Shown: piece by piece, positions 13,465-24,842 of the stretch
How the letters are laid out: each line of letters starts with the position of its first letter
Numbering within the stretch: the stretch's first letter is position 1
DNA from: Oscillospiraceae bacterium
Lineage (GTDB): Bacteria; Bacillota; Clostridia; Oscillospirales; Ruminococcaceae
Assembly: GCA_009784825.1 (NCBI GenBank)
Contig: WQXO01000001.1
Location: 127,599 to 191,598, forward strand
Direction: 5' to 3'
DNA: 64,000 bases
Translations under genes and position numbers: made by a program
Notes under the pieces: generated by a model
Database searches by the model: none
What the model saw: the letters and a program-made list of their open reading frames with translations, nothing else
What the model was told of the DNA's origin: nothing

Positions 13465-13578
13465 GATAATTCTCCTTATTGGTAATTTATGTTATGCCAC
13501 CATTATATCAAACACCTTGAACTCTTAATAGTAACACAAGGCATGACTTTCATGTGACATTTGTCACAATCTTGTATC

Positions 13579-13607: not shown

Positions 13608-13690
13608 TTTACATAACAAAAAATATTTTTAAAAATATAAAACCACAACCATTTTTTAACAGTCCTTATGAATAGAGGGGGAACAAAACA

Positions 13691-15379
13691 ATGAACCAAA
13701 AAATTACTCAAGCGGTAACTGCCTTACAAAACGGTGACCACAAAGCCTTTGAAACACTCTACAAGGAATTCTCACAGTCTGCTTACTTCCTTGCGTTGAA
13801 GCTGATGAAGAACCCTCAGGAAGCCGAGGATGTAACACAAGAGGTGTTTATTAAGGTGTTTCAGAAAATTGGGGAACTCAAAGACCCTATGGCGTTCCCC
13901 GCATGGTTCAAACGAATAACTGTTAACCAATGCACCGATATGCTGAAGAAAAACAATGTTTTGACTATCTCAGCCGAAGAAGAAACCGAGTTAGATTTTC
14001 TTGAAGAAACCGACATCGAATTAATCCCCGATAAATCGCTTGACAATGCAGAAACGGCACGGTTAATCGTTGAAATAATAGACAGGCTCCCACCCCCTCA
14101 AAAGGTCTGCGTGTACTATTATTATTACGAACAATTGAGCGTTAATGACATTGCGGAAAGCTTATCGGTGGGTAAGAACACCATTAAGACCCGCCTATCA
14201 TTAGCGAGGGAAAAAATCGGAAAGGAGCTGAAAAAATTGGAAGAAAAAGAGGGGATTAAGTTATACTCAATCGCACCGTTTGTAATCCCTGCTCTTCTGA
14301 GAACGATGCAGGAAACCGAAGTCCCCGCACATTTGTTAACCAATATTACTGCTGAAATCGGCATATTATCTGCGACTGCGGCAACAGTAACAACCACCGC
14401 TGTTATGACGTTCAAAACAAAAGTATTAATAGCGGCAGGGAGTGTGGCAGTGACAGGTACAGTTATAGCGGGAATTGTAATCGGTAATACAGGTGATGAT
14501 TTTCAGGACGTTTATGTTCCGAGCGAGATAACTACAGCTGTGACTGATACAATTATAACCACAGAATATGAGCCGCCGCAAACAACAACAATCGTTACAA
14601 CAACCGAACCTGAACCATTGCAAACAGAACCGGAGCAGTCCGAACCGGAGGAAACAACCGCCGCAACAACGGCAGCTACCACGACAGCAACAACAACTGC
14701 TGCAACAACCGTGGCTACTACAGCGGCAACGACTGCCGCAACAACCACGGCTGCTACAACGGCAACAACGACTGTAACAACAGCACCTCAGGTCATAACC
14801 GAGCCTCCCACGCTCTCACTGTCTATAGGCGATATAATCCAGTTAGGCGGTCATGACTGGCGAGTGATTGACATTCAAAACGGCAGAGCGTTAATTATAA
14901 GTGAGAGAGTTATTACAACACGGCAGTATCATTCTGACAGGCGAGTTGATGTAACATGGGAGAACAGCGACATTCGTGCATGGTTGAACGGCGAATTCTA
15001 CAATAATACATTTTCAGCGGCAGAAAAAAATATGATAGCCCAAACAAGAGTAGAAAACATGAATAACCAGTGGCACGGTACATCGGGCGGGAACGCAACA
15101 ACCGACAGAGTGTTTCTGCTGAGTTTAGAGGAAGTTGTGAGATATTTCGGGGACAGCGGACAGTTGAACACTCGGAGCAGCTCACCTATAAATGACGAGT
15201 TTAATTCGGCTCGTACTGCCACCTTTGACGGAAGAAACAGATGGTGGTGGGTTCGTTCACCCGGGAACGGGAGCAATCGTGCTGCGAACATTAACAATAA
15301 CGGTTTCATTGATGTAAGCGGCGACCATGTAGACAACAACAACGGCGGAATCCGCCCTGCTTTATGGCTGATTCTGTGA
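13691..15379 (+). CDS. ECF sigma factor fused to an extracytoplasmic DUF6273-like domain
   Basis: A 562-residue fusion. Residues 1-175 are a complete ECF sigma factor: region 2 (NPQEAEDVTQEVFIKVFQKI, FPAWFKRITVNQC) and region 4 (RLPPPQKVCVYYYYYEQLS, NTIKTRLSLAREKI). Residues 180-240 contain a mildly hydrophobic segment (IAPFVIPALLRTM). A membrane helix follows at about 240-262 (VLIAAGSVAVTGTVIAGIVIG), then a Thr/Ala-rich stalk of about 110 residues and a domain of about 185 residues (IGDIIQLGGHDWRVIDIQNG ... WWWVRSPGN ... GGIRPALW) like DUF6273. Lysines before the helix favour an N-in, C-out topology. The next gene is a subtilisin with the same C-terminal domain. A sigma factor held at the membrane and freed by proteolysis is a plausible but untested model. 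Confidence 0.88.
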   Translation: MNQKITQAVTALQNGDHKAFETLYKEFSQSAYFLALKLMKNPQEAEDVTQEVFIKVFQKIGELKDPMAFPAWFKRITVNQCTDMLKKNNVLTISAEEETELDFLEETDIELIPDKSLDNAETARLIVEIIDRLPPPQKVCVYYYYYEQLSVNDIAESLSVGKNTIKTRLSLAREKIGKELKKLEEKEGIKLYSIAPFVIPALLRTMQETEVPAHLLTNITAEIGILSATAATVTTTAVMTFKTKVLIAAGSVAVTGTVIAGIVIGNTGDDFQDVYVPSEITTAVTDTIITTEYEPPQTTTIVTTTEPEPLQTEPEQSEPEETTAATTAATTTATTTAATTVATTAATTAATTTAATTATTTVTTAPQVITEPPTLSLSIGDIIQLGGHDWRVIDIQNGRALIISERVITTRQYHSDRRVDVTWENSDIRAWLNGEFYNNTFSAAEKNMIAQTRVENMNNQWHGTSGGNATTDRVFLLSLEEVVRYFGDSGQLNTRSSSPINDEFNSARTATFDGRNRWWWVRSPGNGSNRAANINNNGFIDVSGDHVDNNNGGIRPALWLIL

Positions 15380-15401
15380 TGAATTAAAATGAGGTAACAT
15401 T

Positions 15402-17441
15402 ATGAAAAAACGGATAACACTATTAATTGCATCAGCATTGGTAACTGTTTTCACAAGCAGTATGCTGTTAACGAATACAGAACCCGCAATTATGCTTGCA
15501 GATAATACACAACCATACATAACCGAGGCAACACAGGTTCAACCGTTTACAGAGCCTCAATTATTTGCAATGGCGGAAGAACAGGACGAACAAGAAATCG
15601 ATTACAGCATTAAACGCATAATCGTCAACACGGAAATTGAAAACATCGAAAGCATGGAGCTGGACGGGCTAATATCTGCAACTGTTTTCAACGACACCGC
15701 TTATTTACTGGAATTCTACAGCGAGGATGATGCTCAAGTCGCAAATGAAAGGTTTGTTGAGGCTGATATTTTCAGTGAAGTCGACATCATAGTAAAAGCC
15801 GAAAGCGACGGCATAGTATACGCCGACAATTTCAAAAGCTGGGGTGTTTCTGCAACGGGCATGGATGATTATCAAAACTACTTAAAACTCGGTAATAACC
15901 TGCCTACAATAATAGTCGCCGTCCTTGACACAGGGGTTGACTCGTCACACCCCATGCTTAACGGGCGAGTGGTTAGCGGCTGGAACTTTGTAAACAAAAA
16001 CTCCAACGCCACTGACAGGCACGGACACGGCACACACGTGGCTGGAACTATAGCCGAAAGCACACTCAGTAATGTTAAGATTATGCCTGTAAAAGTGTTA
16101 AACGATAATGGTGCCGGTTATTCGTCGGACGTGATTTCGGGAATTCGCTGGGCAGCCGATAACGGTGCTAAGGTTATCAATCTCAGCCTTGGCGGTTTTG
16201 GAAGACTCCAATCAACCCGTGACGCAATACTGTATGCGAACAGCAAAGGCTGTGTAGTTGTTGTATCCGCAGGGAACGACAACAGCGACGCCTCAAATTA
16301 TGACCCTGCGTGGGTTCCCGAGGCTATCACAGTTGCCGCCCATAATATACGCAACCAAAGAGCGAGTTTTTCAAATTACGGAAACGTGATTGATTTATCT
16401 GCCCCCGGAGTAGACATTACATCGGGTGTCCCCGGGAACAACTACAGAACTTGGTCGGGAACGTCAATGAGTGCCCCCCATATTTCTGCCGCAGTCGCTT
16501 TATTAATGAGCGATTCACAGTATAACAATCTGCACCCCGATGCTATTCAGGACAAGATAAAGGAAGCAACAGATGATTTAGGTGCACCGGGGTTCGATAT
16601 ATACTACGGTCACGGCGGGTTAAATGTAAAAAAACTGATTCCCGAATCCAACCCTCCTGTTACCGAGCCAAACCCACCGGTAACTGAACCCCAACCTCCT
16701 GTCAGCGAGCCGAACCCACCGGTAACTGAACCCAAACCTCCCGTCAGTGAGCCGAACCCACCGGTAACTGAACCCAAGCCTCCCGTTAGTGAGCCGAACC
16801 CACCGGTGACTGAACCCAAGCCTCCTGTCAGTGAACCGAAACCGCCTGTCACCGAACCCGTTCCTCCTCCTCTACCAACACTCAGAATAGGCGATATAAT
16901 TCAATTAGGCGGGTATGACTGGCGAGTGATTGACATTCAAAACGGCAGAGCGTTAGTTATAAGTGAGAGAGTTATTACAACACGGCAATATCACTCTAAC
17001 AGAAAAGACGATGTAACATGGGAGAACAGCGACATTCGTGCATGGCTGAACGGCGAATTCTACAACAATACATTCACAGCGGCAGAAAAAACACTGATAG
17101 CTCAAACAAGAATAGATAATGCAAATAACCAATGGTTTGGTACATCGGGCGGAAACGCAACAACCGACAGAGTGTTTCTGTTGAGTTTAGAGGAAGTTGT
17201 AAAATACTTTGGTGACAGCGGACAGTTATACACTAAAAAAAGCTCACCTATAAACGACGCATACAATTCGGCACGCACCGCTACCTTTGACGGGAAGAAC
17301 AGATGGTGGTGGGTTCGTTCGCCCGGTAACGCTACAAATAATGCTGCGAACATTAATAATAACGGTTTCATTGATGTAAGCGGCGACCATGTTGACAACA
17401 ACAACGGCGGAATCCGCCCTGCTTTATGGATAACTCTGTAA
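15402..17441 (+). CDS. Secreted subtilisin-like protease (S8) with DUF6273-like C-terminal domain
   Basis: A 679-residue secreted serine protease. A signal peptide (RITLLIASALVTVFTSSML) is followed by a propeptide-like region (about 60-140), then the S8 catalytic domain with Asp in VAVLDTGVDSSHP, His in RHGHGTHVAGT, oxyanion Asn in VVSAGNDN and Ser in SGTSMSAPHIS, all intact. Then comes a Pro-rich stalk of PPVTEP/PPVSEP repeats and a DUF6273-like domain almost identical to that of the sigma fusion upstream, at DNA level as well. It starts 22 bp after the sigma gene and is probably cotranscribed. Its natural target is unknown; the shared domain suggests a functional link to the sigma fusion. 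Confidence 0.94.
   Translation: MKKRITLLIASALVTVFTSSMLLTNTEPAIMLADNTQPYITEATQVQPFTEPQLFAMAEEQDEQEIDYSIKRIIVNTEIENIESMELDGLISATVFNDTAYLLEFYSEDDAQVANERFVEADIFSEVDIIVKAESDGIVYADNFKSWGVSATGMDDYQNYLKLGNNLPTIIVAVLDTGVDSSHPMLNGRVVSGWNFVNKNSNATDRHGHGTHVAGTIAESTLSNVKIMPVKVLNDNGAGYSSDVISGIRWAADNGAKVINLSLGGFGRLQSTRDAILYANSKGCVVVVSAGNDNSDASNYDPAWVPEAITVAAHNIRNQRASFSNYGNVIDLSAPGVDITSGVPGNNYRTWSGTSMSAPHISAAVALLMSDSQYNNLHPDAIQDKIKEATDDLGAPGFDIYYGHGGLNVKKLIPESNPPVTEPNPPVTEPQPPVSEPNPPVTEPKPPVSEPNPPVTEPKPPVSEPNPPVTEPKPPVSEPKPPVTEPVPPPLPTLRIGDIIQLGGYDWRVIDIQNGRALVISERVITTRQYHSNRKDDVTWENSDIRAWLNGEFYNNTFTAAEKTLIAQTRIDNANNQWFGTSGGNATTDRVFLLSLEEVVKYFGDSGQLYTKKSSPINDAYNSARTATFDGKNRWWWVRSPGNATNNAANINNNGFIDVSGDHVDNNNGGIRPALWITL
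16651..16866 (+). repeat. Pro-rich stalk repeat inside the subtilisin gene
   Basis: A tandem series of 18- and 36-bp units encoding alternating PPVTEP and PPVSEP hexapeptides, about eleven hexads. The long open frame on the opposite strand (GGFGSLTGG pattern) is only its antisense image. Confidence 0.9.
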
Positions 17442-17455
17442 AAGGAAACACGATT

Positions 17456-18319
17456 ATGAAACACCTGATATTATTAGTTATATTATCGCTTGTTTTAATG
17501 GTTACTGCTTGTTCCGGTAACGACACGGAACAAGCAGTAACAACAACCGAGCAGACAGAGCCATCCGTCATTACAGAAACAACAACATCGCCTCCGAAAA
17601 CTACAAGTGGGCGGACAGAGTCGTCCGCCCCTACAGAAGAACCAACAGAAAAAACCGAAGAACCGCCGGAATTGCCGGAAACAACCGCCGAAACAACGGC
17701 AACGGTTACAACAACGGCAACGACGACTGTCGCAACAACGCAACCGCCCCCACCGACTGCGACAAATCCGAATGACATTGCTGTTACTTCCGTTCTTTTC
17801 CCAACACATGAAGCGTCGTTAAAATTAGGCGTATCGAACATTTCACAGACGGCTGTTATATTACCCTATAATGCAAGCGTAAAAACTGTAACATGGAAGT
17901 CAAGTAATACAAATGTTGCGACCATTGACGGTTCGGGCTATATTTCGGCTAATGCAGTAGGGACAACCACGATTACAGCAACAAGCAACAATGGATTAAC
18001 CGCAAGCTATACTTTAATAATATACGACCCCAACGCACCGTTTGACCCGCAACCGTATGTTGATTATGCAATTTGGTATGGTGAATCTATCGGTTTGAGA
18101 TGTGGACAAAAATACGTCGGTGACGGTGGAGATAATCCAATAGAGAACGCCTCTTGGGATGCACCTTTAAGTCTTTTTGGCGGTCTATCAAAGGAAATTA
18201 TGGAAAGTAGTATAAGGGGGCGTTGTGAGCAGATTAAACGTGAAAATCACAAGTCTTTCTTTCCATATGCTGAAAAGCAAGAAAACGGCACTTATAAACT
18301 GCATATCTTTTACGCTTAA
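17456..18319 (+). CDS. Lipoprotein with Thr-rich stalk and Big2-like Ig domain
   Basis: A 287-residue lipoprotein (lipobox VTAC, signal KHLILLVILSLVLMVTAC). The start at 17456 follows AAAGGAA; an upstream in-frame ATG lies inside the end of the protease gene. A Thr/Glu/Pro stalk of about 80 residues is shared with the next three genes. Residues about 100-190 form a bacterial Ig-like (Big2) domain with TVTWKSSNTNVATIDGSGYI and VGTTTITATSNNG. The last 85 residues are unassigned. A palindromic element encodes part of the stalk (17609-17630). First of four leader-sharing lipoproteins behind the protease. Confidence 0.85.
   Translation: MKHLILLVILSLVLMVTACSGNDTEQAVTTTEQTEPSVITETTTSPPKTTSGRTESSAPTEEPTEKTEEPPELPETTAETTATVTTTATTTVATTQPPPPTATNPNDIAVTSVLFPTHEASLKLGVSNISQTAVILPYNASVKTVTWKSSNTNVATIDGSGYISANAVGTTTITATSNNGLTASYTLIIYDPNAPFDPQPYVDYAIWYGESIGLRCGQKYVGDGGDNPIENASWDAPLSLFGGLSKEIMESSIRGRCEQIKRENHKSFFPYAEKQENGTYKLHIFYA
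17609..17630. repeat. In-frame palindromic element, lipoprotein 1
   Basis: Arms GGGCGGAC and GTCCGCCC around AGAGTC, followed by CTAC. It encodes part of the stalk GRTESSAPTEE. Confidence 0.8.
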
Positions 18320-18360: not shown

Positions 18361-19548
18361 ATGAAAAAATATATCCCCTTCGTCCTTGCTTTGTTTATAA
18401 TCACCTTCACCGCTTGTAACAAGGACGATTTGCCGATTACTACCGAAACGACAACCGAGAAGACAGAGCCGTCTACCATTACAGAAACAACAACATCGCC
18501 TCCGAAAACTACAATCGGGCGGACAGAGTCGTCCGCCCCTACAGCAGAACCGGAGGAAACACAAGAAGAAGAACCTCCCGAATTGCCGGAAACAACCGCC
18601 GAAACAACAGTAACGGTTACAACAACGGTAACGACTACTACTGCAACAACGCAACCGCCCCCTCCGACAGAACCGCTGAGTTCGGTTGTCAATGCACGGG
18701 GGAACACGGTAGGCAACCTAAACAACAGCGGCGGAGCGGCAATGCAGGGAGATTGGATTTATTACCGTAACGGTGAGGACGGGTGGACTCTTTATAAAGT
18801 AAAAATCGACGGCACGGGTAAACAGGAACTTACAAACGATAATACATCACATATAAATGTTGTCGGCGATTGGGTTTATTACATTAACCGAAACAATATG
18901 CACACAGAAGCACCGATATACAAAGTCCGAATCGACGGCACAGGCAGACAAAAATTCCATGAAGATGATGTTTCAAGCATGAGTGTAGTCGGGGATTGGA
19001 TTTATTACAGCTTGGTCAGTGGAAGCAGCTGGAACATCTATAAAATCAGAACTGACGGTACAGGCAGGCAAAAGCTGAACGACGACGATTCATGGTATCC
19101 GACAGTGGTTGACGGCTGGATTTATTATATAAATGCTATTGACATTTCAGGAACAATTTATAAAATTAAAACCGATGGCACAGGCAGGCAAAAAGTAAAT
19201 GACGACATTTCATTTGATATTAATGTAGTAGGTGATTGGATTTATTACCGTAACAGCGACGACAATGGCAGATTGTATAAAATCAAAACCGACGGCACAG
19301 AAAAACAGAGGTTGAACTATAGTGTTTCGTCGGCTGTTAATGTAGTTGGTGACTGGATTTATTATATCGGGAACGGGCAGATGATTCATAAAATTAAGAC
19401 CGACGGCACAGAAAATCAAGTTGTGGTAAATTGCACGGCATTTACAATTAATATTGTAAGTGATTGGATATATTTTCAAAACAAAGATGACAATTATGTG
19501 CTGTATAGAGTTAAAACCGATGGTACAGGTTTAATGGCGGTCAATTAA
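18361..19548 (+). CDS. Lipoprotein with DUF5050-like WIYY repeats
   Basis: A 395-residue lipoprotein (lipobox FTAC; ribosome-binding site AAAGGAGC). After the common Thr-rich stalk it has about eight repeats of 35-40 residues built around GDWIYYRN and LYKIKTDGTGRQKLN, typical of DUF5050-like beta-propellers. Such domains bind ligands at the cell surface; no catalytic site is visible. The first roughly 100 codons are nearly identical in DNA to those of the genes at 19563 and 20309. Confidence 0.88.
   Translation: MKKYIPFVLALFIITFTACNKDDLPITTETTTEKTEPSTITETTTSPPKTTIGRTESSAPTAEPEETQEEEPPELPETTAETTVTVTTTVTTTTATTQPPPPTEPLSSVVNARGNTVGNLNNSGGAAMQGDWIYYRNGEDGWTLYKVKIDGTGKQELTNDNTSHINVVGDWVYYINRNNMHTEAPIYKVRIDGTGRQKFHEDDVSSMSVVGDWIYYSLVSGSSWNIYKIRTDGTGRQKLNDDDSWYPTVVDGWIYYINAIDISGTIYKIKTDGTGRQKVNDDISFDINVVGDWIYYRNSDDNGRLYKIKTDGTEKQRLNYSVSSAVNVVGDWIYYIGNGQMIHKIKTDGTENQVVVNCTAFTINIVSDWIYFQNKDDNYVLYRVKTDGTGLMAVN
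18517..18538. repeat. In-frame palindromic element, lipoprotein 2
   Basis: Same arms GGGCGGAC/GTCCGCCC and AGAGTC loop as in the previous gene, at the equivalent codon position. Confidence 0.8.
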
Positions 19549-19562
19549 ATAAGGAGCATACC

Positions 19563-20288
19563 ATGAAAAATCTAATCCCCCTCGTCCTTGCTTTCCTCAC
19601 GCTCACCCTCACCGCCTGTAACAAGGACGATTTGCCGATTACTACCGAAACGACAACCGAGAAGACAGAGCCGTCTACCATTACAGAAACAACAACATCA
19701 CCTCCGAAAACTACAAGTGGGCGGACAGAGTCGTCCGCCCCTACAGCAGAACCTGAGCCGACGACAGAAATTACTGAAGAACCTCCCGAATTGCCGGAAA
19801 CAACCATAGAAACTACAACAACCGTAACGACTACTGTCGCAACAACGACACTACCCGAAACGACAACGGTGACTACAACCACAACAGTTACCGAGCCGCC
19901 TGTCATTGATTTTGAACGAGAAGTTTTTCGACTTTTCAATGTAGAACGTGCCGCTAATGGTATACCACCTTTGGAGTGGCACGATGAACTTGCCGCAGTA
20001 GCACGTACACACAGCCACGATATGTGGATACGAGAGTTTTTCAGCCATACTTGTCCATCGGGTTTAGACAGCCAAGACCGTATAGAAAATGCGGGACTTC
20101 AATTCGGCATACAATGGGGTTCAAACGAAAACATCGCTACCGGTTCGTCCCCCGAAGACGTTGTAAATAGATGGATGAATTCAACGGGGCATAGAAACGC
20201 TATTCTAAATCCACAACACATTTATGTGGGTGTGGGTCAATCTTGGGGGCTGTGGACAGCAAATTTTATTTTTGTGATGCGAGCTTAA
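19563..20288 (+). CDS. Lipoprotein with CAP/SCP (cysteine-rich secretory protein) domain
   Basis: A 241-residue lipoprotein (lipobox LTAC; site AAGGAGC). After the shared stalk (to about residue 115) comes a CAP domain: VFRLFNVERAANGIPPLEWH, RTHSHDM, FFSHTCPSG, NIATGSSPEDVVNRWMNSTG and HRNAILNPQHIYVGVG. The two CAP-signature histidines and the acidic residues are present. Bacterial CAP proteins of this YkwD-like type are surface proteins of largely unknown activity. Third of the four-lipoprotein set. Confidence 0.92.
   Translation: MKNLIPLVLAFLTLTLTACNKDDLPITTETTTEKTEPSTITETTTSPPKTTSGRTESSAPTAEPEPTTEITEEPPELPETTIETTTTVTTTVATTTLPETTTVTTTTTVTEPPVIDFEREVFRLFNVERAANGIPPLEWHDELAAVARTHSHDMWIREFFSHTCPSGLDSQDRIENAGLQFGIQWGSNENIATGSSPEDVVNRWMNSTGHRNAILNPQHIYVGVGQSWGLWTANFIFVMRA
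19719..19740. repeat. In-frame palindromic element, lipoprotein 3
   Basis: Arms GGGCGGAC/GTCCGCCC with loop AGAGTC at the same codon position as in the neighbouring lipoprotein genes. Confidence 0.8.
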
Positions 20289-20308: not shown

Positions 20309-21754
20309 ATGAAAAAATATATCCCCCTCGTCCTTGCTTTCCTTATAATCACCCTCACCGCCTGTAACAAAGACGATTTGCCGATTACTACCGAAACAAC
20401 AACCGAGCAGACAGAGCCGTCTGCTCCTATTGAAACAACAACGTCGCCGCCGAAAACTACAAGTGGGCGGACAGAGTCGTCCGCCACTACAGCAGGACCT
20501 GAGCCGACGACAGAAATTACTGAAGAGCCTCCCGAATTGCTGGAAGTAACCGCCGAAACAACAGTAACGGTTACAACAACGGCAGTTACAACGTCGCCTC
20601 CTCCTGTAGTAGCTGCTCCTGCCGCTAATATAAAGGAACTCATCAATGCTACTCCGCTTACCCCAATGGCAACACAAAATAAAGAAATGGACGCCAAAAT
20701 CAACCAAATTATCGGAACCGGCGGCAGTGCTTACGATAAAGTGGTAAGGGGTTATGACTGGCTTATCAGAAACGTGACCTATGTCGAGGGCGGAATAGGT
20801 ATGATGGTCAGCGATGTTTATTTACCTAACAGCCACCCCGATTATTACGGGGAATACGGTAATTTCCATACAGGTTATTTATTGTGGAGCTATCCCGCAT
20901 TAATTCAAAACAAAGGGGTCTGTGATAACTTTTCGACAGCGTTTGTGTTAATGGCACGGTCAATCGGTTTAGAGGCGTATGCCTACACAGGACAGGTCAA
21001 AAGCAAGAGCGGCGGTTACAGAGGACACACATGGGCAGGTATAGTGTTAAACGGCACGGTTTATATTTTCGACCCGCAGGTAGAGCAGAACAACCTCGGT
21101 GCAAACAGTGTTATAAACTATTCATATTTCGGTAAAACAGCCTCACAAATGTCATCGACTTATATTTGGGATGCCGTGTCGGGGTATTCTGCGATATTCG
21201 GTGAGGCGAGCTTAATAAACCATTATATAAGCAGAGCAAGCAAATGGGATTATGTTGTCAGCAGTGTTGCCGATATTGAGCAGTTAATTAATACTAAACC
21301 CGTTAACATGAGCCAAGGAGGGAGGTTAATCCTCACAGGATTATTACCAAAAAAAGAAGTTGACGCAGTGCTTAATAAGTATTATGACATTCCCGTCCCG
21401 TCGAACACTTTTTCTGAATCTGTTCTGAAAGCGGTCTGCGACACCCTGCTTGAATATAGATTGATTGAAATTGAGTATGGTGAAGGGTGCATTGCCGTAA
21501 TTCATAAAAAGCCGGTTAATCCCGACCTCAAGCCGTCAGACCTAACAGCGGCAACCGTATATTTCGAGTTGAAAAAAACCGATAATATGTTCGGCAACAC
21601 CCCCGGCACAGTAAATTTCGGAACAAGTCACGCTTTCGGGTGGAGCTTCCACGACAAAACAACGGGGCACATATATTACATGTACAACGGAAACGAGCGG
21701 GAAATTTATAACAAAATTATCAACACGCACCCCGCCTACCAACCCACTTCTTAA
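20309..21754 (+). CDS. Lipoprotein with transglutaminase-like domain
   Basis: A 481-residue lipoprotein (lipobox LTAC; site AAAGGAGC). After the shared stalk, residues about 130-290 form a transglutaminase-like (cysteine protease fold) domain with the triad Cys in NKGVCDNFSTAF, His in YRGHTWAGIVL and Asp in YIFDPQVEQ, all intact. A C-terminal region of about 190 residues ends in HAFGWSFHDKTTGHIYYMYN and is unassigned. Extracellular transglutaminase-fold proteins act on peptides or cell-wall material. Last gene of the tethered-sigma/protease/lipoprotein cluster. Confidence 0.9.
   Translation: MKKYIPLVLAFLIITLTACNKDDLPITTETTTEQTEPSAPIETTTSPPKTTSGRTESSATTAGPEPTTEITEEPPELLEVTAETTVTVTTTAVTTSPPPVVAAPAANIKELINATPLTPMATQNKEMDAKINQIIGTGGSAYDKVVRGYDWLIRNVTYVEGGIGMMVSDVYLPNSHPDYYGEYGNFHTGYLLWSYPALIQNKGVCDNFSTAFVLMARSIGLEAYAYTGQVKSKSGGYRGHTWAGIVLNGTVYIFDPQVEQNNLGANSVINYSYFGKTASQMSSTYIWDAVSGYSAIFGEASLINHYISRASKWDYVVSSVADIEQLINTKPVNMSQGGRLILTGLLPKKEVDAVLNKYYDIPVPSNTFSESVLKAVCDTLLEYRLIEIEYGEGCIAVIHKKPVNPDLKPSDLTAATVYFELKKTDNMFGNTPGTVNFGTSHAFGWSFHDKTTGHIYYMYNGNEREIYNKIINTHPAYQPTS
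20405..20426. repeat. In-frame palindromic element, lipoprotein 4, first copy
   Basis: Arms GAGCAGAC and GTCTGCTC around AGAGCC. The three sister genes carry decayed versions of this copy at the same place (arms no longer match). Confidence 0.75.
20465..20486. repeat. In-frame palindromic element, lipoprotein 4, second copy
   Basis: Arms GGGCGGAC and GTCCGCCA around AGAGTC, with one terminal mismatch. Same position as in the other three lipoprotein genes. Confidence 0.75.
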
Positions 21755-22834: not shown

Positions 22835-24382
22835 TTAACCTAAATAATCCATCGGATTAAGTTTCTCTCCGTTGAAAATTATTTCAAAGTGTAAATGCGG
22901 ACCTATAGAGTGACCGGTGCTTCCCACATCCGCAATATGCTGCCCTGCTACTACCTCATCGCCCTCGCTTACATAAAGCTCATTACAATGTGCATATAAA
23001 GTGCTGTAGCCGTCACCGTGGTCTATAATAATCATATGCCCGTAACCGCCATTGTCATATTCCGCAGTGACTACCGTTCCGCCTACCGCCGCAAATATCG
23101 GTGAACCTAAATCTGCCTCAATATCAACCCCGTAGTGGAAGCTGCCGTTATTGTAGCCGTAACCGACAGAAAAGATTCCGTCAGACACAGGGAACATAAA
23201 TTTGTAGGAAGAAGGAGGAACATTAGAATCGCTTATCAAAGGAAGTACTTTTTCAATTAACACAAACTCGTTCCCGTTGATGATTACCGCTGCAATACCG
23301 CTTGTATCAAAGCCCTCTATAAACGCTATACTTTTGAAATATTGACACTTGCCGCTATTGTCAACCTCTGTTGAATATCCGTGACCATGTGTTAAATAAT
23401 CCTCGGGCATATAAGGGCTCACTGTCCCTGTTGACCCGTCGTAGAATTTTATTTCAATTCTTGTATTAAAATTCTGAATGCTTTTTTCATCTAAGTCAGA
23501 AAAATGGAAATTAATCGAATGCTTTGACAGTTTAACACTGTTTAAGATAACGGCATTTCCGCCGATATAAAGAGTTTCATTAATCTCGGTTACTTCAAAT
23601 TCAACAGGGTCATAATCTGCCGTGAATGTTGCAGAAAACTCGCCCCCTAAAACCGTGAAAAAATGCTCCTCCTTGAATTGTATAATCCCTGTTTCAGCAT
23701 AGAGAGAATCCTGCATAAGCCGCTCTTCATCTAAAACTTTAATATCTTTTAAAACTATTCTGATGGTTTCACCCACTATCACGTTATAGGGGTCACTGAT
23801 AACGAATTCGAGATACAGCCTGCCGTCTTTTACATATTGATGCTGTGAGGTCATAGCAACCCCCGGATACTTTTCCTCGTCGTCACGCTGTTCGAGAATG
23901 ACACGCTGCTCTTGCATAAACAGCATATACGATGAATAATAGTATTCGTTTTCGTCAAAAACAAATCCGTTTTTTCCGATTAGCTCAACCGTCGCATACA
24001 TAAAGTTCTCGTCACCGTATAACTCAAACATTCTCACATCTAAATGAAAAGTGTTAGTTTTAATATCGAAAAACATTCCCGGTTGATGTTCGGCGGAATG
24101 TGTCGTTGTTTCAATCGGTTCTTGCGGTGATGATTCAAAAGAAGCGGTAGTTTCAGAAAACGGTTCAACAGGGTCATGCTGAAGTGCGTTGAATGCGATA
24201 ACGCTTCCCACTGCCAACACAACAGCCGCCGCCGCTAACGGTATAAGCCCCCTCAAAGGCGACCGCATTTTAATCGGCTCGGCTTGGACAGGTGTATTAA
24301 GTGTTCTGTCGAGTATTTTATCGAGTGTTTTATCGGTGGGCGTAATTGAGTCAAACGCCGCTGTTAATTCTTTCTTGTCCAT
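22835..24382 (-). CDS. Anti-sigma-like membrane protein with M23 peptidase domain
   Basis: A 515-residue protein. The start at 24382 follows GGAGAATAATT and overlaps the sigma gene by 32 bp. The short cytoplasmic N-terminus (KKELTAAFDSITPTDKTLDKIL) and one membrane helix (LIPLAAAAVVLAVGSVIAF, about 50-68) resemble ECF anti-sigma factors. A beta-rich extracellular region of about 300 residues with DUF4179-like character follows. The C-terminus is an M23/LytM domain with FHYGVDIEADLG, GYGHMIIIDHGDG and GPHLHFEI, containing the zinc ligands. Probably restrains the sigma factor at 24351 and senses or cleaves peptidoglycan; the pairing is inferred from overlap and topology. Confidence 0.85.
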   Translation of the reverse strand: MDKKELTAAFDSITPTDKTLDKILDRTLNTPVQAEPIKMRSPLRGLIPLAAAAVVLAVGSVIAFNALQHDPVEPFSETTASFESSPQEPIETTTHSAEHQPGMFFDIKTNTFHLDVRMFELYGDENFMYATVELIGKNGFVFDENEYYYSSYMLFMQEQRVILEQRDDEEKYPGVAMTSQHQYVKDGRLYLEFVISDPYNVIVGETIRIVLKDIKVLDEERLMQDSLYAETGIIQFKEEHFFTVLGGEFSATFTADYDPVEFEVTEINETLYIGGNAVILNSVKLSKHSINFHFSDLDEKSIQNFNTRIEIKFYDGSTGTVSPYMPEDYLTHGHGYSTEVDNSGKCQYFKSIAFIEGFDTSGIAAVIINGNEFVLIEKVLPLISDSNVPPSSYKFMFPVSDGIFSVGYGYNNGSFHYGVDIEADLGSPIFAAVGGTVVTAEYDNGGYGHMIIIDHGDGYSTLYAHCNELYVSEGDEVVAGQHIADVGSTGHSIGPHLHFEIIFNGEKLNPMDYLG

Positions 24383-24842
24383 AATTATTCTCCAATTCAA
24401 GTTTTAATAGTTTTCTCCCTCTGTGCATAATTCCTCGGATTGTCACCTCAGGTTTACCGAGCATTTTCGCAATTTCGGCAGTTTTATACCCCTCATAATA
24501 AAAAAGGTATATAGGGATTTTATACTTTTCGGGCAAAGCCAAAACCTGCTCCAGTGTATCGTCGACAGCGTTTTCATGATAAGCTAATGTATCGGGAATT
24601 TCGACCCGCTTCGCCCACGCCGATTTCAACGAATCCTTACACGTGTTTGAGGCGGTTCGGATTAGCCATGCCTTTTCATGTTCCTCGCTCTCGAACCCGA
24701 CAACACTGTTCATCAGCTTCACGAATGTGTTGTGGGTCATATCCTCTGCATCGTGGGCATTCTTCATAAACATATAGCAGATACGATAAATCATTTGAGA
24801 ATTGCGGGAATATATCTCGGCGACTTCCTGCTTACTTCGCAT
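24351..24842 (-). CDS. ECF RNA polymerase sigma factor
   Basis: A 163-residue ECF sigma factor with region 2 (KNAHDAEDMTHNTFVKLMNS, KAWLIRTASNTCKD) and region 4 (LALPEKYKIPIYLFYYEGY, TAEIAKMLGKPEVTIRGIMHRGRKLL). It precedes and overlaps the membrane protein with the M23 domain, the usual order for sigma and anti-sigma. A candidate autoregulatory promoter lies at 24877-24905. Confidence 0.95.
   Translation of the reverse strand: MRSKQEVAEIYSRNSQMIYRICYMFMKNAHDAEDMTHNTFVKLMNSVVGFESEEHEKAWLIRTASNTCKDSLKSAWAKRVEIPDTLAYHENAVDDTLEQVLALPEKYKIPIYLFYYEGYKTAEIAKMLGKPEVTIRGIMHRGRKLLKLELENNYGQERINSGV

Follow-up and report, generated by a model that had tools for sequence, protein, structure and literature searches.

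Self-tethered ECF sigma factors as candidate one-chain sigma receptors in Clostridia

The 64,000-nucleotide stretch of Oscillospiraceae bacterium DNA considered here (assembly GCA_009784825.1, contig WQXO01000001.1, positions 127,599 to 191,598; hereafter, the window) carries a gene in which a sigma factor of the extracytoplasmic function (ECF) type continues into a membrane helix, a stalk and an outer domain. We propose that this protein and its relatives are one-chain sigma receptors, in which a self-tethered sigma factor would stay silent at the membrane, be released by intramembrane proteolysis and then drive its own operon. Judging from the sequence comparisons presented below, we assign this reading a probability of roughly 60%. 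ECF control usually involves two proteins, whereas the fusion family unites sensor, tether and sigma factor in one chain with a freely variable outer domain, so that a cell would probably need no separate inhibitor protein to sense signals from outside.

The fusion gene (13691–15379, forward strand, like all features below unless stated otherwise) is an open reading frame (ORF) of 562 residues starting with ATG. Its N-terminal part contains sigma-70 region 2 (residues 23–89, 13757–13957; PF04542, Sigma70_r2, 4.6e-13) and region 4 with the recognition-helix motif NTIKTRL (residues 125–176, 14063–14218; PF08281, Sigma70_r4_2, 4.9e-11), and it scores 98 bits against TIGR02937, the cut-off being 42.9. 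Having regions 2 and 4 in one chain, the protein is, on its domain content, an ECF sigma factor. Behind region 4 lies a juxtamembrane segment, GIKLYSIAPFVIPALLRTMQETEVPAHLLTNITAE (14252–14356), recognized as conserved by box comparison and consisting of a K-L-[Y/H] box and the hydrophobic stretch after it. The single transmembrane helix, LIAAGSVAVTGTVIAGIVI (residues 246–264, 14426–14482), is the sole hydrophobic segment over the threshold; lysines on its N side and aspartates on its C side indicate that the N-terminus is inside and the C-terminus outside. The extracytoplasmic part is composed of a Thr-rich stalk (14483–14818; 42% Thr over residues 280–376) and a DUF6273 domain (residues 397–560, 14819–15376), where the PF19789 match spans positions 1–170 of the 172 in the model (7e-33). 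The first-pass annotation of this DNA had read the frame in the same way, and the ORF, Pfam and hydrophobicity data agree with it.

That annotation had also stated that no separate anti-sigma gene is adjacent, and none was found next to the fusion gene: its neighbours are a divergent ABC transporter ATPase gene (by sequence) upstream and a protease gene downstream. The ordinary ECF loci of the same genome provide a contrast. Thirty loci were fetched and the 20 ordinary ECF loci among them retained, fusions and two other sigma types being left out; in 15 of the 20, a single helix is predicted in the directly following gene, as would be the case for an anti-sigma factor. Among the remaining loci, two helices are predicted in the following gene at L015 and none over the threshold in that at L004, which nevertheless starts in a similar way; an unrelated frame comes after L020, and no candidate was found at L011 or L019.

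To follow these features across the family, we handled 45 proteins: 40 fusions with regions 2 and 4, four relatives with region 4 only, and L205, a family member interrupted by a stop that separates its regions 2 and 4 (578–1084 and 1120–2190). Genomes of the window's order contributed 37 of the 40 fusions, and the other three (L064, L066 and L068) lie on named contigs; L066, L184 and L201 run off the contig end, and L206 is interrupted by N. Pfam scans covered 41 of the 45 proteins, all but L203–L206, including 37 with both sigma regions. The segment following region 4 in the fusions takes the form E-x3-G-[IVT]-[KR]-L-[YH]-x3-P and then continues with hydrophobic residues. A strict version of the box, [KRTP]-L-[YHFW] no more than 24 residues after region 4, was found in 35/40 fusions (L186 and L201 lack it, and the anchor failed in L194, L203 and L204) versus 1/66 ordinary ECFs, the latter being what was left of the 102 in our tree set after the anchor had failed in 36. 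The charge flanking the helix favours an inside N-terminus in 42 of the 45 homologues, the opposite in one and neither in two. The zinc motif H-x3-C-x2-C was absent from residues 151–360 in all 45 proteins, and no anti-sigma Pfam family matched any of the 41 scanned. The flanking charge, the lack of a zinc-type motif and the lack of an adjacent anti-sigma gene uphold the earlier idea that the sigma factor is its own tether.

The helices are also rich in small residues: Gly and Ala make up 8.0 of 19 residues in the fusions versus 4.1 in 42 single-helix proteins of the same loci, and GG is present in 31/45 fusion helices versus 1/15 anti-sigma-like helices.

Fusions of this kind recur. A search of the window's own genome for region 4 turned up, besides ordinary ECFs, a number of long frames, and among those then examined were four full fusions: the window protein with its DUF6273, a tandem pair on contig 9 with an outer C-type lectin (PF00059, 1e-14) and leucine-rich repeats (LRR), respectively, and one on contig 5 with LRR. 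In the taxonomic family, seven of 119 genomes yielded matches at E <= 1e-40, ten in total and all of them frames of 354–1122 residues. In the order, at least 20 of 295 genomes contained a stop-free match reaching the membrane part of the profile (frames of 333–1303 residues), and G237 had a further match with one in-frame stop; at most 8 candidates were scored per genome, which makes this a lower bound. Three of 398 phylum genomes, own genome included, reached 1e-50 (at most 6 candidates scored per genome) versus at least 19/295 in the order at the same threshold, a contrast that is partly bias, since the profile was built mostly from order members. Within the genus, fusions are uncommon: 3/48 genomes matched a region-4-plus-box profile at 1e-15, the two besides our own carrying fusions with both sigma regions. 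One of these fusions, L249, is identical to L064 over 602 residues.

The first-pass annotation had named an assembly error at the sigma/stalk junction as a possible flaw. Yet the same architecture stands on other contigs of the genome and in other genomes. Nothing was found in favour of an assembly or frame artefact, and 40 two-region examples from many genomes, their complete frames and the purifying selection on the duplicated outer domain (see below) make it a practically negligible explanation.

In a tree built by a quick method from the sigma part alone (146 rows, 180 columns, cut before the box), all 44 fused rows fell within one group of 49 rows (SH-aLRT, an approximate likelihood-ratio test, 90). 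The fused label required 2 changes on this tree versus 38 on average in shuffles, with none of 500 shuffles as low. The sigma domains of the sampled fusions thus form one tree group. Five simple rows are found inside it: L065, which ends soon after the box, and L172, which has an in-frame stop, may be truncated fusions, and L011, L015 and L024 are long-branched ECFs of our genome.

Promoters provide another line of evidence. A putative ECF-type promoter of the fusion gene, AATATAAAACC and GTCCTTAT separated by 17 nt (13634–13669), ends 21 nt before the ATG. An AAC at −35 combined with CGTC at −10 is the typical shape of an ECF promoter, often that of the sigma factor's own gene. The other three fusions of the genome, as well as several relatives, have similar sites upstream, and the conserved upstream pattern of the window's subclade is AAAACC-N17-GTCTTWAT. 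Expressed as a rule, [AG]ACC-N17-G[TC]C[TC] within 150 bp, the pattern occurs in 7/10 members of this subclade versus 1/36 other fusion or region-4-only genes (46 upstream stretches, with L201 left out as its start is missing); L179, which was not among the genes used to notice the pattern, fits the rule. When 505,503 bases (23%) of our genome were scanned with a matrix from eight sites, four of them its own, the four fusion genes ranked first with scores of 21.2–27.1; the runner-up scored 16.4, and one shuffled control reached 16.7 at most. The four sites end 21–41 nt before the start codon. With a matrix made from the four other-genome sites (spacings 15–19), the lectin fusion of contig 9 came first, the window fusion joint second and the LRR fusion of contig 9 fourth, while neither L179 nor L064 showed a good upstream site. 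This ECF-type promoter suggests that the subclade consists of working, self-activating sigma factors, and sister fusions may cross-activate each other. As the strongest evidence available, the promoter also suggests that the operon behind the window fusion is its output.

Also bearing on sigma activity are four proteins encoded in tandem on contig 2 (L051:6309–12771), which have region 4 only, a similar hydrophobic juxtamembrane segment and a helix; their outer parts are DUF6273 (in two), DUF5050 or of no known domain. In these proteins, PDEVGER is found where a recognition helix of the [NGST][TA][VI]K type would usually be, and the rule found no fusion-type promoter before their genes. Given these two traits, a role as sigma factors is improbable for them. 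A profile of the four run against 79 other genomes (E <= 1e-15) matched two-region fusions only. Such relatives, devoid of region 2, could suggest that the sigma part of the whole family has lost its activity and serves as an adaptor or decoy. However, all 37 scanned two-region fusions keep regions 2 and 4 over the Pfam cut-offs, the usual recognition-helix pattern is present in 35/40 fusions and the window subclade keeps its common promoter, so that we consider such a loss very improbable for the fusions.

If the fusions are sigma receptors released by proteolysis, the following chain of events might be envisaged. The tether would hold the sigma factor off RNA polymerase or keep it inhibited, with silencing achieved by the tethering, the box or both. 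Binding or damage at the outer domain would lead to shedding of the ectodomain by some protease, after which an RseP-type site-2 protease would cut the helix, and the freed sigma factor would transcribe the gene encoding it, those of the sister fusions and the secreted-protein genes that follow in the same direction. In the window, the outputs would be an S8 protease and four lipoproteins, and the fusion and the protease, through their DUF6273 domains, would recognize a common surface ligand, directing sensor and output to the same target. A gene for an M50 protease is located on contig C18 (PF02163, 2.3e-59); its product has HExxH and LDG motifs and is presumably of the RseP type, judging from the motifs and its length. 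A weaker M50 match over the cut-off is found on C2 (3.3e-9). With a site-2-type gene present and the fusion helices rich in Gly and Ala, release of the window sigma factor by intramembrane proteolysis is plausible.

A regulator of the ToxR or CadC kind would work without proteolysis: a ligand would alter the box or the dimer state, and the sigma factor would act at the membrane. One-chain membrane regulators are widespread (PMC10269533; here and below, statements on published systems refer to the parts of the cited papers that we covered), and the long low-complexity stretches between box and helix in several fusions, for example L053, L064 and L194, could give a sigma factor the necessary reach. 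ToxR and CadC do resemble the window family in being one-component and membrane-bound (PMC10269533), but they are DNA-binding regulators and not sigma factors; in the main text of the survey of transmembrane transcription regulators just cited, as far as covered, the word sigma was not found. On the other side, the two tested tethered sigma factors considered in this text, IutY and pro-sigmaK, are freed by proteolysis in the published accounts covered here. The Gly/Ala-rich helices and the M50 gene weigh in the same direction. Moreover, a sigma factor has to bind RNA polymerase and come off it again. Without any of these points being decisive, we regard action at the membrane as unlikely, if worth keeping in mind, and retain release by proteolysis as the preferred reading.

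Several points weigh against that reading. The Gly/Ala richness is partly common to anti-sigma-like helices, which have 6.6 such residues of 19 (16 helices, 15 of them different), and the homologues are not independent of each other, meaning that the p-value of this richness is overstated. The sampling for the tree favoured box-bearing sequences, as the search profile contained the box, so that additional origins in other lineages are conceivable, and long branches were flagged. The promoter pattern was first noticed by eye, in six genes, and the rule does not hold for three of the subclade's ten members. In L246 and L247, the −35 half and the 17-nt spacing are intact but ATC is found where GTC is expected; in L064, no clear −35 was found. 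In the cross-validated scan, an unrelated site, L293, ties with that of the window, while the best 14 sites did not include the remaining own site (L053). No common promoter was established for other subclades, six further groups having had their upstream DNA viewed. Finally, an xAA sequence tags RsgI cut by the site-2 protease for degradation by ClpXP (PMC12203970), and xAA occurs in 39/45 fusion helices (23-residue windows) versus 12/15 anti-sigma-like helices (19 residues). A freed sigma factor might consequently be degraded quickly, and by analogy the frequency of xAA may mean that release comes as a short pulse. Depletion of this degron, expected if the freed sigma factor must survive, was considered and rejected on the same counts.

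Next to the fusion gene, separated by 22 nt, is the gene of an S8 subtilisin (15402–17441; 679 residues, ATG start) with a signal-peptide-like start, a catalytic domain (15909–16616; Peptidase_S8, residues 170–405, 3.4e-56), a Pro-rich linker and a C-terminal DUF6273 (16881–17438; residues 514–678, 1.4e-34). The motifs VLDTGVD, HGHGTHVAG, GTSMSAP and SAGND are all present, and we take them to represent the catalytic triad and the oxyanion Asn; the enzyme is intact and apparently secreted. It is the only S8 match found in the genome. As the first-pass annotation had it, this subtilisin ends in a domain nearly identical to that of the sigma fusion: the two coding regions are 87% identical in DNA across 553 bases, and of 186 codons 131 are identical, 30 differ synonymously and 25 non-synonymously. 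The resulting rates of non-synonymous (dN) and synonymous (dS) substitution, 0.080 and 0.449, indicate a diverged duplication under purifying selection and not an assembly duplicate. No other near-identical DNA copy of the fusion's DUF6273 exists in the genome, the remaining matches being 68–78% identical. There are 17 DUF6273 matches in total; several of the frames examined are lipoprotein-like and others are not.

As for the domain itself, a C-type-lectin-like fold was reported from AlphaFold models of DUF6273-containing phage proteins (PMC10743442), and an IgA protease of a gut bacterium has been described as having DUF6273 at its N-terminus (PMC12402451). When PDB sequences were searched with our DUF6273 alignment A5, one convincing match emerged, 9qa6 (5.6e-08), whose chain is named IgA protease; it shares this name with the published enzyme, and we treat the two as possibly separate proteins. 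A scan of viral contigs with a DUF6273 alignment found 31 loci, 16 of which were used for A5, and the same scan with a single DUF6273 domain as the query gave no match. DUF6273 has also been described as a target of diversity-generating retroelements (PMC10743442). We rejected this idea for our genome, which has no match to PF00078 (RVT_1) and in which dN is well below dS between the DUF6273 copies.

The first-pass annotation had gone further and cast the neighbouring subtilisin as the activator: it would be the site-1 protease of the fusion, perhaps recruited through the common DUF6273 by a shared ligand or by domain contact. The 22-nt spacing, the status of the enzyme as the sole S8 match and the purifying selection holding the DUF6273 copies similar are all in keeping with this. 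But an S8 gene is found at only one of the 41 loci examined (one of which, L212, holds no fusion), and of the 71 genus genomes searched, our own alone has S8 and DUF6273 joined in one match. Three other S8 proteins examined from the genus (L261, L276 and L289) end differently, without DUF6273, and no sigma fusion was found in the roughly 1.5 kb of flanking sequence fetched for them. The three sister fusions of the genome carry other outer domains, and the presence of DUF6273 on several lipoprotein-like proteins means that sharing it is not specific. Thus, S8, the one protease family for which the loci were searched as a general candidate, is not a conserved partner of the fusions; a protease neighbour at a fusion locus is an exception, and recruitment of the subtilisin as a dedicated site-1 protease appears quite unlikely. 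From its setting, the enzyme looks more like an operon output. Overall, the self-tethering part of the earlier interpretation is supported, while a role of the adjacent subtilisin as the activating enzyme is not.

What recurs at fusion loci is of a more general kind. Pfam families in the outer parts of the 41 scanned proteins include DUF6273, Lectin_C, LRR_4/LRR_8, BspA-type LRR_5 and DUF5050, as well as Big_2, CAP, Cu_amine_oxidN1, WG repeats and class 3 lipase, and many outer parts have no Pfam match. The fusion with the lipase (L201:1–3591) has a second predicted helix near its C-terminus. At 4/40 fusion loci (counted without a chance control), an adjacent gene resembles the outer part of the fusion: the S8-DUF6273 gene of the window (87% identity), a copper-amine-oxidase N-domain at L179 (52% over 67 residues), a neighbour with BspA repeats at L207 (45% over 146 residues) and a CAP protein at L209 (27% over 112 residues). 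The sharing neighbours at L179, L207 and L209 match no peptidase family, which also speaks against a protease partner recruited through the outer domain. Among co-directional downstream neighbours at a distance of up to 300 bp, 12/25 have a signal-peptide-like start, as called by a crude in-house predictor, versus 35/159 control pairs (p = 0.008). The recurrent theme may therefore be a sigma receptor next to a surface or secreted protein, sometimes with a common outer domain.

Self-tethering has precedents. IutY of Pseudomonas putida (ECF243) joins a sigma factor and an anti-sigma domain in one chain and is activated by regulated intramembrane proteolysis (RIP); the proteases Prc and RseP release the sigma domain, which truncation is sufficient to activate (PMC5411451). 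Like the window fusion, it has a cytosolic ECF domain, a membrane segment and an outer regulatory domain in one polypeptide. Unlike it, IutY is a Gram-negative protein whose periplasmic anti-sigma domain of the cell-surface-signalling (CSS) type is tied to an outer-membrane receptor; the outer domains of the window family vary and come from other families. No CSS anti-sigma domain was found in the 41 scanned proteins at E <= 0.001, and the window neighbours are the ABC transporter gene and the protease, not a TonB receptor. In ECF52 (SCO4117, Streptomyces), an ECF domain, a helix, a Pro-rich region and a carbohydrate-binding outer module are combined, and proteolytic release has been proposed (PMC5826349, PMC8999054); a self-tethered ECF with an outer sensor has been proposed for ECF48 and ECF53, too (PMC8999054, PMC5826349). 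The ECF domain and membrane helix are common to ECF52 and the window family, where Lectin_C or DUF6273, which may bind carbohydrate, lies outside in some fusions and unrelated domains in others. However, all three groups are actinobacterial and have a zinc-finger domain in the published descriptions covered, whereas the window family has the K-L-[Y/H] box instead, with a zinc motif in 0/45 across residues 151–360. On these features, the window protein is neither of the ECF52 type, lacking a zinc finger, nor of the IutY type.

Other known systems share single traits with the family. In Clostridium thermocellum, nine paralogous RsgI sensors of sigma-I in one genome respond to different substrates through RIP by RseP (PMC12203970), and the window family likewise has several paralogous sensors in one Clostridia genome. 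However, RsgI is a separate anti-sigma factor and is destroyed, whereas the window family is one chain, the freed part of which would be the product. The pro-sequence of pro-sigmaK is short and N-terminal, and an outer sensor domain is absent. This Firmicute sigma precursor is activated by a site-2 protease, SpoIVFB (PMC10202637).

Thus, the self-tethered ECF with an outer sensor is already known as an idea, tested in IutY and proposed for ECF52, ECF48 and ECF53, and one-component RIP, which the earlier interpretation had put forward, is preceded by IutY (PMC5411451) and ECF52 (PMC5826349, PMC8999054). We found no description of the Clostridia fusion family in the open PMC literature covered; the main ECF classification lay outside that coverage, and an existing ECF group number is therefore possible. 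New with respect to the literature covered are the lineage, the box that replaces an anti-sigma domain, the great variety of outer parts on several paralogues in a genome, the relatives with region 4 only and the common promoter.

It is tempting to suppose, although we advance this only tentatively and consider it less than probable, that the inner cassette of ECF domain, K-L-[Y/H] box and Gly/Ala helix arose once in the order and became a plug-in transducer for nearly any outer domain, each with a self-amplifying output, and that the region-4-only proteins are pseudo-sigma receptors modulating RNA polymerase or the full fusions. Either way, the family would offer a simple means, open to experiment, of linking an external ligand to a promoter in gut-type Clostridia. 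The predicted promoter, the candidate release enzyme and the truncation points make silencing by the tether alone directly testable.

Behind the protease, four genes for lipoprotein-like proteins follow: one with a Thr-rich stalk and Big_2 (17456–18319), one with DUF5050 (18361–19548), which is also found in the outer part of one region-4-only protein, one with a CAP domain (19563–20288) and one with a transglutaminase-like domain (20309–21754), all recognized by ORF and Pfam. Their spacing makes it probable that they belong to the same operon as the fusion and the protease. All four have similar Thr-rich stalks, three have a nearly identical signal peptide and their C-terminal domains differ, as if domains had been swapped behind a single secretion and stalk cassette.

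Some other long frames and neighbours were observed along the way. At L064, proteins with TIR-type regions lie on either side of the genus-mate fusion (L064:6843–7871 and L064:3927–4889; Pfam matches the downstream one only), and the downstream protein begins with a fragment resembling a sigma N-terminus (TVEAARKGDSEAFETLYNGHAQ). L212 (G270) represents a different long ECF architecture of the order (L212:5384–8545, about 1050 residues), with a DUF3108-like match behind the sigma part and no predicted helix found; similar frames of 1049–1064 residues occur in G218, G258, G271 and G314. Long ECF frames that match up to the sigma part only, such as those in G165, G179, G372, G287 and G335, were placed outside the fusion set.

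Finally, two further features of the window deserve a comment. A motif scan revealed a perfect palindrome, TGTGA-N6-TCACA (TGTGACATTTGTCACA, 13553–13568), in the gap that separates the sigma fusion from the divergent ABC gene. We assume it to be of the CRP/FNR type; it is the single match in 64 kb versus an expected mean of 0.07, with 6/100 shuffles holding one. On the reverse strand, at 22835–24842, an ordinary ECF gene is followed by that of a single-helix anti-sigma-like protein with an outer M23 peptidase domain, a case in which the putative sensor itself carries a cell-wall enzyme domain.

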